Assembly (NCBI GenBank): GCA_013822345.1
Contig: PNKH01000025.1
Coordinates: 1-64,000, forward strand
Direction: 5' to 3'
Length of the DNA: 64,000 nt
Origin: Isosphaera sp.
GTDB lineage: Bacteria > Planctomycetota > Planctomycetia > Gemmatales > Gemmataceae
The notes beneath the pieces were generated by a model. It had not been told where the DNA came from and searched no databases. It was given only the letters and a program-made list of their open reading frames with translations. The translations under genes and the position numbers were made by a program. Positions 44,973 through 52,278 of this stretch are shown one piece after another (the stretch's first letter is position 1; every line of letters begins with the position of its first letter).

Positions 44973-45042
44973 GGACCAAGGACCAAGGACCAAGGACCAA
45001 GGACCAAGGACCAAGGACCAAGGACCAAGGACCAAGGACCAA
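44973..45042. repeat. Tandem heptamer (GGACCAA)10
   Basis: Ten perfect copies of GGACCAA in the gap between the GAF/HlyD gene and the WD40/HlyD gene. The preceding 35 nt (44917-44951) hold degenerate complementary TTGGTC/TTAGTC units, so a large hairpin can form. It is intergenic, not a CRISPR: the unit is 7 bp with no spacers. Confidence 0.95.
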
Positions 45043-45098
45043 GGACAACCCGCCGCCCGGCCGGGCGAGTCCGTCTCGCACCCCGGCGGCAACCGTGC

Positions 45099-49868: not shown

Positions 49869-49890
49869 TCGGGGGTGCCGCGGCGCAAGC

Positions 49891-49950
49891 CACAAGCCCG
49901 GGGGGCGAGCAAGGGCCGGCCAACGCCCTTGCTCGCCCCCCGGGCTTGTG
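49891..49950. repeat. 25-bp inverted repeat after the M50 gene
   Basis: Perfect arms CACAAGCCCGGGGGGCGAGC... (49891-49915) and 49926-49950, loop 10 nt, starting 23 nt after the M50 stop. If it terminates transcription, the DUF692 operon has its own promoter. Confidence 0.92.
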
Positions 49951-50030: not shown

Positions 50031-50237
50031 ATGAACCTCCCGGCCAACCTCCTCCGCACCCTGGCCGCGGCCGTCGCCGCCGCCGGCCTGTCCGGCTGCG
50101 CCGCCAACGGGTTGTCCGACCCGCAGCCCGGCGGGCCGGCGCCGTCCGACCCGCCCCAACCCCCGGCCGTCTGCCCGGTGGAGCAACCGGGCGAGTTCCG
50201 CCACCCCGACGGTTGCCCGGCCTGTGGACAGGGCTGA
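50031..50237 (+). CDS. Small lipoprotein-like peptide, candidate MNIO substrate (68 aa)
   Basis: The peptide has a signal-like N-terminus with lipobox AGLSGC (Cys23), a Pro-rich middle and a C-terminal part with three Cys (AVCPVE and DGCPACGQG). Its last 14 bp overlap the start of the DUF692 gene, so the two are translationally coupled. MNIO enzymes of the DUF692 family modify Cys or C-terminal residues of short precursor peptides encoded next to them, and some precursors carry Sec signals. That makes this the natural substrate candidate, by position and Cys content only. It may instead be an unrelated lipoprotein. The ATG at 50031 has no strong ribosome-binding site. Confidence 0.6.
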   Translation: MNLPANLLRTLAAAVAAAGLSGCAANGLSDPQPGGPAPSDPPQPPAVCPVEQPGEFRHPDGCPACGQG

Positions 50238-51090
50238 CCCCGCGGCCCGGCCGCGGGTCGGCCTGTCGCTGATGCCGGAGCCCGACTTCCTCCGCGCCGC
50301 GGCCCCGCTCTTCGCCGCCGGCGCCGTCGAGGTCGTCGAGTGGAGCTTCGACACCGGCTGGCCGCCGGCCGCCGTCCCGGGGTGGATCGACGAGTTACTC
50401 CGGCACTACGGCGACGCCGGCCGACTCCTCGGCCACGGCGTCTCGTTCTCGCCGCTGTCCGCCGGCACCGGCGACGCCCAGCGGCGGTGGCTCGGGCGGC
50501 TGACGGAGGAGGTCGCACGGCGCAACTACCGGCACGTCTCCGAACACTTCGGCTTCTCCGCCGCCGGCGACTTCCACCGGTCGGCCCCGCTGCCGGTGCC
50601 GCTGACCGGCCCCGCCCTGCGGCTCGGCCGGGACCGGCTGCGGCGGCTCGCCGACGCCGCCGGGGTGCCGGTCGGGCTGGAGAACCTCGCCTTCGCGTTC
50701 GGCCGCCGCGACGTGGACGAGCAGGGGCACTTCCTCGACGCCCTGCTCGACCCGGTCGACGGGTTCCTTCTGCTCGACCTGCACAACGTCCACTGCCAGG
50801 CGGTGAACTTCGCCGTCCCGTTCGACGACCTGCTCGACCGCTACCCGCTGCACCGGGTGCGCGAACTCCACCTGTCCGGCGGCTCCTGGAGCGACGGCGT
50901 CCGCCGCGACACCCACGACGGCCCGGTTCCGGAGGAGCTGTTCGCGGCGCTGCCGGGGGTGCTGCGGCGGTGCCCGCGGGTCGAGGCGGTGGTCCTGGAG
51001 CGGCTCGGCGGCACTCTCGCGGAGGCGGACGACGAGCCGTTCCGCCGCGACTTCCTCCGACTCGCGGGGTGCGTCCGTGGCGCCGGATGA
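50224..51090 (+). CDS. DUF692-family (MNIO) multinuclear iron oxidase
   Basis: The 288-aa TIM-barrel protein shows the DUF692 pattern: VGLSLMPE (residues 12-19), LGHGVSFSPLS with His71, SEHFGF with Glu107/His108, GLENLAF with Glu153/Asn154, LLLDLHNVHCQAVNF (Asp185, Asn188, Asn195), RELHLSGG with His216, DTHDGPVPEEL (Asp229, His231) and ERLGG with Glu260. These are the positions that hold the two or three irons in characterised members such as MbnB and TglH, which modify Cys-containing or C-terminal residues of ribosomal peptides. The start is GTG at 50224, inside the end of the small peptide gene. The partner gene overlaps its 3' end by 14 bp. Confidence 0.87.
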   Translation: MDRADPAARPRVGLSLMPEPDFLRAAAPLFAAGAVEVVEWSFDTGWPPAAVPGWIDELLRHYGDAGRLLGHGVSFSPLSAGTGDAQRRWLGRLTEEVARRNYRHVSEHFGFSAAGDFHRSAPLPVPLTGPALRLGRDRLRRLADAAGVPVGLENLAFAFGRRDVDEQGHFLDALLDPVDGFLLLDLHNVHCQAVNFAVPFDDLLDRYPLHRVRELHLSGGSWSDGVRRDTHDGPVPEELFAALPGVLRRCPRVEAVVLERLGGTLAEADDEPFRRDFLRLAGCVRGAG

Positions 51091-51313
51091 CGACGACCTG
51101 GCCGCGTTCCAGGCGGCGCTCCTCGACCTGCTCGACCGGAACCTCCCGGCCGAGGAGTTGCGGCGCCGCCTCCGGGACGACCCGGCGTTCGCCGCGTTCC
51201 GCGGGTACGTGGAGACGTTCGAGCCGCGGATGCTGGCGGTCGCCGCGGACCTGGTCAAGAAGTGGGGCCGGCGGTCCGGGAGCGGCGAAGACCAGGGTGG
51301 CCGGCCGGGGTGA
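51077..51313 (+). CDS. Small helical protein, probable partner of the DUF692 enzyme (78 aa)
   Basis: Two to three amphipathic helices are predicted: AFQAALLDLLDRNLPAEELR, RDDPAFAAFRGYVETFEPRM and LAVAADLVKKWGRR. The gene starts with GTG inside the last codons of the DUF692 gene (14-bp overlap), so it is translationally coupled. DUF692 enzymes often need a small companion that binds the precursor (MbnC- or BufC-type). This protein does not clearly match those families and is shorter, so the role is inferred from coupling alone. A terminator follows 28 nt after the stop. Confidence 0.7.
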   Translation: MAPDDDDLAAFQAALLDLLDRNLPAEELRRRLRDDPAFAAFRGYVETFEPRMLAVAADLVKKWGRRSGSGEDQGGRPG

Positions 51314-51340
51314 CGTGGCCGGGTCGACCGTGCCGGTGGT

Positions 51341-51365
51341 ACCCAGGCCACCGGCCTGGGTTTTA
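51341..51365 (+). terminator. Terminator of the DUF692 operon
   Basis: Perfect 9-bp stem ACCCAGGCC/GGCCTGGGT (51341-51349, 51353-51361), 3-nt loop, followed by TTTTA. It lies 28 nt after the small partner gene and 36 nt before the IS element. Confidence 0.85.
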
Positions 51366-51400: not shown

Positions 51401-52278
51401 TTCCAAAAGGGTCAGGTATCATAACCTGTCGGGATGACGCGGCGACCATACCCGAGCGACCTGACCAACACCCAGTGGGAGCTGGTCGCCCCCTTGATCC
51501 CGCCGGTGAAGCCCGGCGGCCGGCCCCGCAAGTACGACATGCGGGAGGTGGTCAACGGCATCCTGTACGTCAACCACGAGGGCTGCCGGTGGCGGGCCCT
51601 GCCCCACGACCTGCCGCACTGGAAGACGTGCTACAACTTCTTCCGGGCGTTCGCCGCCGACGGCACCTGGGACAAGCTCGTCACCGCCCCGCGGGTCGCA
51701 ATCCGGACCAAGCTCGGCCGCGACCCGACCCCGAGCGGGGCGCGCATCGACAGCCGGTCGGCCAAGACCGCCCACGGCGGGGCCGAGGTCGGGACGGACG
51801 GCGGGAAGATGGTCCGGGGTCGCAAGCGGCACATCGTGACGGACACGCTGGGCCTGCTGCTGGTGGTGCTGGTGACGGCGGCCAACCGGGACGACGGGAC
51901 GACCGCCCCGAAGCTGCTGACGGAGCTGCGGGCCGAGGCGTTCCCCCGGCTGTCGGTCGTCTGGGCGGACTCGAAGTACCACAACGACACGCTCGCCGCC
52001 TGGCTCCGGGGGCAGGACCGGCTTACGGTCGAGGTGACGAGTCGGCCGGAGGGGCAGAAGGGGTTCCACCCGCTGCCCAAGCGGTGGGTGGTGGAGCAGA
52101 CGTTCGCCGGGCTGATCCGGTCCCGCCGACTGGCGAGGGACTTCGAGCGGCTGCCGGAGACGAGCGCGGCGATGGTCAAGCTGAGCGGGGTTCATCGGAT
52201 GGCCCGGCGTGCCCGCCCCCCGCGGGGGCGGCGAAAGTTCCGCTACAAACCCGAGGCGGCTGCCTGACCCTTTTGGAA
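51401..52278 (+). mobile_element. IS5-family insertion sequence, intact
   Basis: Terminal inverted repeats TTCCAAAAGGGTCAGG (51401-51416) and complement (52263-52278) are perfect over 16 bp and may extend as CG[GA]TTCC outward. The element is about 878 bp with one uninterrupted transposase frame. I see no clear target duplication. It lies between the DUF692 operon terminator and a TPR gene, without breaking either. Confidence 0.9.
51434..52267 (+). CDS. IS5-family DDE transposase
   Basis: The 277-aa protein carries the N-terminal DUF4096-type domain (YPSDLTNTQWELVAPLIPP, GCRWRALPHDLP) and a DDE catalytic domain with IDSRSAK for the first Asp, GRKRHIVTDTLGLLLVV, VVWADSKYHN for the second Asp and the C-terminal KRWVVEQTFAGLIRSRRLARDFE with the Glu. 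Length and motifs are complete and there is no frameshift, so it should be functional. The TGA lies inside the right terminal repeat. It is the only transposase in the window. Confidence 0.95.
   Translation: MTRRPYPSDLTNTQWELVAPLIPPVKPGGRPRKYDMREVVNGILYVNHEGCRWRALPHDLPHWKTCYNFFRAFAADGTWDKLVTAPRVAIRTKLGRDPTPSGARIDSRSAKTAHGGAEVGTDGGKMVRGRKRHIVTDTLGLLLVVLVTAANRDDGTTAPKLLTELRAEAFPRLSVVWADSKYHNDTLAAWLRGQDRLTVEVTSRPEGQKGFHPLPKRWVVEQTFAGLIRSRRLARDFERLPETSAAMVKLSGVHRMARRARPPRGRRKFRYKPEAAA

Follow-up and report, generated by a model that had tools for sequence, protein, structure and literature searches.

Introduction

MNIO enzymes of the ChrH subfamily act on precursors with a C-terminal CPxCGxG, from which a macrocycle and a hydantoin are formed (PMC12636315). 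Several precursors of the subfamily have a lipobox, and DybA of Dyadobacter crusticola becomes a triacylated lipopeptide; the name DAG-RiPP was proposed (PMC12636315). In the sections of that paper covered here, a GFP experiment indicated that the C-terminal heptapeptide is enough for DybH, the non-motif Cys of DybA was left unmodified by the MNIO, and product was formed without ChrI. A separate C-terminal domain, MelHc, has also been described, and MelH without MelHc gave no modification (PMC12636315). Planctomycetota are named in the covered sections once, among small network clusters. Our literature search, mostly of freely accessible papers, returned PMC12636315 as the only source of the term DAG-RiPP and, among the matches listed, as the only one that combines MNIO and Planctomycetota; the motif CPACGMG occurred in four papers.

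Here we describe a three-gene set of the planctomycete Isosphaera sp. (assembly GCA_013822345.1), located in a stretch of 64,000 nucleotides that we call the window (contig PNKH01000025.1, positions 1 to 64,000). An earlier reading of the window, made from the sequence alone, had proposed a precursor, an MNIO and a partner, possibly of a new class. The set resembles DybA/DybH in its short lipobox precursor, C-terminal CPxCGxG, ChrH-type MNIO and minimal gene content, but DybH acts without a partner protein, whereas the window has a separate 78-aa domain, a precursor ending in CPACGQG and an extra core Cys (PMC12636315). The likeness to MelH/MelHc/MelA1 of a Melainabacterium lies in the MNIO with a separate domain, which is required in that system; MelA1, however, has a mass of 34 kDa and carries a signal for signal peptidase I, whereas the substrate in the window would be a 68-aa predicted lipoprotein (PMC12636315). 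With the chryseobasin system ChrA/ChrH/ChrI it shares a C-terminal CPACGxG and a ChrH-type enzyme. ChrH is one chain, about 80-100 residues longer than MbnB, whereas the enzyme in the window is split, and the chr cluster also encodes ChrI (DUF1772) together with an epimerase and a peptidase (PMC10214503), whereas PF08592 gave 0 matches in the window's genome (assembly 95% complete), so that the ChrI (DUF1772/Anthrone_oxy) of a chr cluster in the strict sense was not found there.

Results

Three overlapping genes

Neighbouring frames of the three share 14 bp, with the stop codons included, just as the sequence-only reading had it (Table 1). Their GC3 was 0.91, 0.96 and 0.95, in the order of the genes, compared with 0.95-0.99 in three neighbouring genes and 0.57 in the downstream spacer. 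The earlier question whether the small frame is coding and conserved is answered by its high GC3 and by ends that are kept across phyla; this conservation of the ends of the small proteins means that the frames are not due to chance. A more upstream start of the peptide, GTG at 49875, was rejected, since codon bias is weaker in the extension (GC3 0.75) and the relatives begin at an MKIP-like motif.

The set is followed by a terminator-like hairpin with a T-rich tail, in keeping with the terminator suggested earlier, but taken alone it is weak (chance would give 0.4 such hairpins over the scanned stretch). Upstream, a perfect inverted repeat is probably the transcription boundary between the M50-HlyD gene and the operon. 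The 14-base core of this repeat had one further copy in the genome, on contig C46, so it does not belong to a common repeat family.

Table 1. Features of the three-gene set and its boundaries in the window.
Feature	Position	Strand	Basis
Precursor gene, 68 aa, ChrA/DybA type	50031..50237	+	Frame; NF050125 below cut-off; C-terminal CPACGQG
ChrH-type MNIO gene (DUF692, 288 aa, GTG start), catalytic TIM-barrel part only	50224..51090	+	
Gene of 78-aa protein (GTG start), detached ChrH C-terminal helical domain (ChrHc/MelHc type)	51077..51313	+	
Cys23 codon, predicted lipidation site, lipobox LSGC	50097..50099	+	Pattern
C-terminal CPACGQG, predicted MNIO modification site	50214..50234	+	CxxCGxG ends in relatives
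Terminator-like hairpin 3' of the operon, then T-rich tail	51332..51355	+	
Perfect 26-bp inverted repeat, loop of 8 nt, flanked by M50-HlyD gene and operon	49891..49950	.	

The MNIO enzyme

The 288-aa protein matched PF05114 (DUF692) with 106 bits, which confirms the family assigned to it from sequence alone. Among the NCBIfam models of MNIOs, the best was MNIO_ChrH (NF050165) with 318.6 bits, followed by BufB (83.3 bits), HvfB (69.7 bits) and ApyH (43.2 bits). The ChrH match spans positions 1-279 of the 363 of the model, whose C-terminal part is absent from the protein. All eight residues of the pattern pointed out earlier (H71, H108, E153, D185, N188, H216, D229 and H231) were invariant in 24 aligned sequences, window included; we take them to be the iron ligands. 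The best-scoring model and the conserved site residues place the enzyme in the ChrH subfamily, with a score below the equivalog cut-off of 600.

Sequence identity was highest to ChrH-type MNIOs of Planctomycetota (up to 64%, L095). It was about 55-60% to five of the six Cyanobacteriota sequences and to the one of Omnitrophota (48% to the remaining cyanobacteriote, L091), and 44-50% to the 33 of Chryseobacterium. The closest sequences in the PDB were 8hci (TglH), 3bww and MbnB.

Conservation of the set

One contig scan with two peptide patterns, which favours close relatives, gave 58 related loci, of which 33 were from Chryseobacterium; none of the records was titled Dyadobacter, Chitinophaga or Hymenobacter. 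In 53 of these loci the fetched flank encodes a protein with CxxCGxG at its end, as does the window, mostly adjoining the MNIO gene (in L077 as a 26-residue frame only). No such precursor was found in the fetched DNA of the other five, L064, L067, L087, L098 and L099. The proposed set of precursor, enzyme and partner is thereby supported, with the CxxCGxG protein in 53/58 loci and the partner domain in 22/58 by profile, besides 35 Bacteroidota tails. On whether relatives have the DUF692 gene without the small frame, the answer is divided between the 53 loci with a precursor and the 5 in which none was found. Comparison of the C-terminal Cys residues, for which variable spacing had been anticipated, showed the motif to be conserved but its spacing fixed, as CxxCGxG.

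One locus, L094, comes from an Acidimicrobiales MAG and combines a ChrH-type MNIO, a split Hc domain and a precursor ending in CPACGLG; as an actinomycetote record it falls outside the gram-negative phyla named in the covered sections of PMC12636315, and a binning error is possible. Another observation concerns distant planctomycete MNIO loci, 4 of the 30 examined (L003, L021, L028 and L030), with proteins of 156-383 residues that have CP[PT]CG[MR] near the C terminus, then R-x-[FV]-L, and close with a short tail; DPCPPCGMAMPSIRARTFLGFF is an example. From their sequence, these proteins could possibly be large MNIO substrates, and they recall the embedded CPACGMMM motif of myxobacteria.

The 78-aa protein and the ChrH C-terminal domain

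We built a domain profile from the 78-aa protein and four relatives; the five seeds recur in L048, L096, L090, L097 and the window, which match the profile by construction. With this profile (E <= 1e-3) the domain was found adjoining or fused to the MNIO in 22 of the 58 loci and in the window, lying within the MNIO chain in L090 (Candidatus Obscuribacter) and L097 (Labilithrix). A long fused MNIO tail was present in 35 Bacteroidota loci: L051, L052 and the 33 of Chryseobacterium, where it measures 77-87 residues. With the split-domain profile these tails gave weak matches, the best at E 0.012, or none. When profile was compared with profile by hhalign, the split domain, represented by 23 sequences, aligned to a set of 12 of these tails with a probability of 95.2% and E 2.7e-8 over 55 columns; the other 23 tails were counted by their length.

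Altogether, 20 loci were split, as is the window, 37 were fused, and L098, a partial match, was neither. The split loci include L087, from Bacteroidota, and L099, where the domain lies in another frame than the MNIO although the frame length looked fused. On a tree of 58 MNIO sequences (the window and 57 loci, L098 being left out for its partial match), parsimony gave at least three changes between split and fused, in either direction; many deep branches are weak.

The AlphaFold2 model of the 78-aa protein (mean pLDDT 83.2) has four helices, in agreement with the small helical protein announced earlier, and these correspond in order to the last four helices of the model of fused L090 (mean pLDDT 90.9). 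The 78-aa protein was the sole match to the domain in the genome at E <= 1. A structure search of its model against the PDB gave no significant match, which says nothing against the assignment to the ChrH domain; with VIA-align the best Z was 4.1 among 24 chains. The homology of split and fused forms, together with the description of MelHc, leads to the conclusion that the 78-aa partner is, judging by profiles and models, a separately encoded ChrH C-terminal helical domain. The idea of a partner unlike the known types must thus be given up, since it is homologous to fused ChrH tails and MelHc-like, and the additional C-terminal helical domain of the subfamily, fused or separate, has its counterpart here.

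The precursor peptide

The 68-aa peptide begins with MNLP and continues with a signal peptide with LSGC, a proline-rich middle, a Cys in CPVE and the CPACGQG end. NF050125 (chryseobasin-related MNIO class RiPP peptide) matched it over its whole length with 25.8 bits (cut-off 40); neither this model nor NF050165 assigns the set formally. The precursor criterion of the subfamily, a CPxCGxG end, is represented by CPACGQG, in a gene that overlaps the MNIO gene. The penultimate residue, just ahead of the final Gly, is Gln, at a position most often taken by Met. The C-terminal Cys reported earlier are there, with the spacing fixed as CxxCGxG, and CPVE adds one further Cys besides that of the lipobox.

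By eye and with a simple pattern, LSGC closes the hydrophobic N-terminal stretch, and Cys23 is the predicted lipidation site. The Pfam model LPAM_1 scored 13.4 bits on the peptide, under its cut-off of 20. The genome encodes Lgt and LspA, so that both the lipobox (by pattern) and the lipoprotein machinery expected of a DAG-RiPP were found, and the small lipoprotein of the sequence-only reading stands with LPAM_1 under its cut-off. Outside Chryseobacterium, lipobox precursors were found in the window, L044, L045, L093, L096, both precursors of L097 and one of L052, with FLGC (L044) and SMAC (L052) deviating from the usual first residue. The combination with a split enzyme, as in the window, recurs in L044, L045, L093 and L096. 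The remaining precursors outside Chryseobacterium include other hydrophobic N termini, and two frames are long, that of L076 with 292 residues and a match to FAGC, that of L091 with 254 residues.

The precursors of L095 (5698-5988) and L101 (5609-5968) end in CxxCGxG and have a mid-chain hydrophobic helix and no lipobox match; from their sequence they are apparently anchored in the membrane by this helix, as an alternative to lipidation. An extra Cys, 21-39 residues from the C terminus and before CxxCGxG, was seen in the window peptide (the CPVE Cys, at 21 residues), and L096, L051 and L052 have one precursor each with such a Cys; most of the 29 precursors outside Chryseobacterium are without one near the motif.

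A possible second conserved end

The start of the peptide is also shared with part of the other precursors. We searched the 29 non-Chryseobacterium precursors, which come from 22 loci including the window, for [KNRT][ILVM]P directly after any start codon, at all positions except the last 30 residues of a frame. The pattern was found in 15 of the 29 (12 loci), 14 times as [KN][ILV]P, compared with 17 of 1648 background open frames (60-200 residues, both strands, many not genes, the 32 Chryseobacterium precursor loci excluded); as the precursors are related by descent, these counts are descriptive and no test. In Chryseobacterium, 31 of the 32 precursor-bearing loci showed the same pattern. M[KN][ILV]P was present in precursors of Planctomycetota, Omnitrophota, Melainabacteria, Myxococcota and Bacteroidota. 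The N-terminal motif is not universal: no precursor of L046-L051, L060, L076, L091 or L094 has the pattern, and in L052 only one of the two precursors has it. A stretch of about 25-30 residues separates it from the hydrophobic helix in L095 and L101, so that there it is not just a piece of a signal peptide. Neither PMC12636315 nor PMC10214503 has MKIP in its main text, although the figure logos may show it.

Distribution and neighbours

Across 392 genomes of the phylum, the ChrH model gave some match at E <= 0.001 in 87, none above the cut-off, and exceeded 300 bits in three (the window's genome, G084 and G121). Among 95 Gemmataceae genomes, the window MNIO had matches at E <= 1e-30 in 3, its own included, the two others with 38% identity (E 2.7e-37 and 9.5e-34); the operon is therefore sporadic, with 1/95 genomes at this similarity. 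MNIO matches in 4 of 18 genus relatives were rejected as counterparts, being more distant MNIOs (29-32% identity, E 5e-11 to 1e-14). In viral contigs, none of 83 pattern matches encoded a relative. The 69 plasmid records with matches were all below 60% identity; among the best 20 of these, a ChrH-like protein on a Hymenobacter volaticus plasmid reached 49% and the other 19 were at 27-37%.

An IS5-family transposase (51434-52267) lies downstream of the operon. The upstream M50-HlyD gene was present in all 19 genus genomes (the window's included), of which 16 have the TPR gene; since these are widespread and a ChrH-type gene at this similarity occurs in this genome alone, neither was counted to the operon. 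The neighbours (HlyD-WD40 frame, M50-HlyD, IS5 and TPR) were also rejected as parts of the system because no ORF of the 58 loci matched them at E <= 1e-4, in flanks of up to 6 kb, shorter at contig ends, with self-matches as positive control. The seven Planctomycetota sequences were scattered on the MNIO tree, where well-supported branches force only 2 changes; horizontal gain of the operon would be the simplest reading, if unproven. Finally, a tandem heptamer, GGACCAA (10.6 copies, 100% matches), was observed at 44973-45046, either 5' of the HlyD-WD40 frame or within its start region; it is possibly a regulatory or phase-variable tract.

Discussion

We conclude that the trio is very probably a chryseobasin/DybA-type RiPP operon with a split enzyme, whose product would be a lipid-anchored, ring-modified peptide. 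Family membership, the conserved set, the equivalence of split and fused forms, the C-terminal motif, and Lgt and LspA are the observations of this analysis from which we argue. A class of its own was not borne out, because the enzyme type, the motif, the lipoprotein variant and the split domain are all described in the covered sections of PMC12636315. One could still think of a divergent precursor modified by a different chemistry, e.g. through the third core Cys, given that this Cys at 21 residues from the end has comparable ones in L096, L051 and L052, and that the enzyme is only 44-50% identical to the ChrH-type enzymes of Chryseobacterium. We consider this unlikely: conservation extends to both the C-terminal motif and the site residues of the MNIO, most of the 29 non-Chryseobacterium precursors have no such Cys near the motif, and the MNIO left the non-motif Cys of DybA unmodified (PMC12636315, covered sections).

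The trio could also be read as a copper-binding system of the bufferin/oxazolin kind, whose third protein would be a reduced DUF2063/RRE partner; the enzyme superfamily is common, the BufB and HvfB models do match, and short DUF2063-like partners (PME-type 2) have been described (PMC12452194, in part). The ChrH model is far better, however, no DUF2063 match was found among 23 aligned partners at E <= 0.1, and the peptide has no EGKCG repeat, so that the set does not correspond to a BufB/HvfB-type MNIO with a DUF2063 partner, and this reading is extremely improbable. The sporadic occurrence (1/95 Gemmataceae genomes at this similarity) and the transposase that follows could instead suggest a decayed or fortuitous remnant, imported recently beside an IS element and non-functional; three intact frames, a strong codon bias and conserved ends make this very unlikely.

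For a chryseobasin/DybA-type operon, the characterised relatives DybAH and MelH/Hc allow us to infer how complex formation, chemistry, export and lipidation may proceed. The MNIO and the 78-aa domain would together make one enzyme, which would oxidise CPACGQG in the cytoplasm before export, joining the two Cys in a macrocycle and forming a hydantoin; the product would differ by -4 Da, or by +10 Da if S-methylated too. The modified peptide would then be exported by Sec, Lgt would add diacylglycerol to Cys23, and signal peptidase II (LspA) would cut before Cys23, giving a membrane-anchored lipopeptide of 46 residues (a DAG-RiPP). With low confidence, the likeliest role would be that of a modified tip held at the envelope, perhaps to handle metal or to bind a surface target.

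The precursors of ChrH-type enzymes may thus have two conserved ends, and we tentatively suggest that M[KN][ILV]P might serve as docking for Hc or hold back export until modification, a possibility to which we give less than even weight. Since DybH needs no more than the C-terminal heptapeptide, the N-terminal motif may have some other use, or reflect only common descent; if true, its docking or export-hold role would be invisible to the published result on C-terminal sufficiency.

A lipoprotein precursor and a split enzyme were known separately, from different phyla, and are combined here in a planctomycete. The class is already described, and a minimal, sporadic member is a useful test case for the function of these peptides. 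The planctomycete set would unite lipidated chryseobasin-like peptides with a two-chain enzyme, and its three compact genes are a place to test the role of the C-terminal domain.
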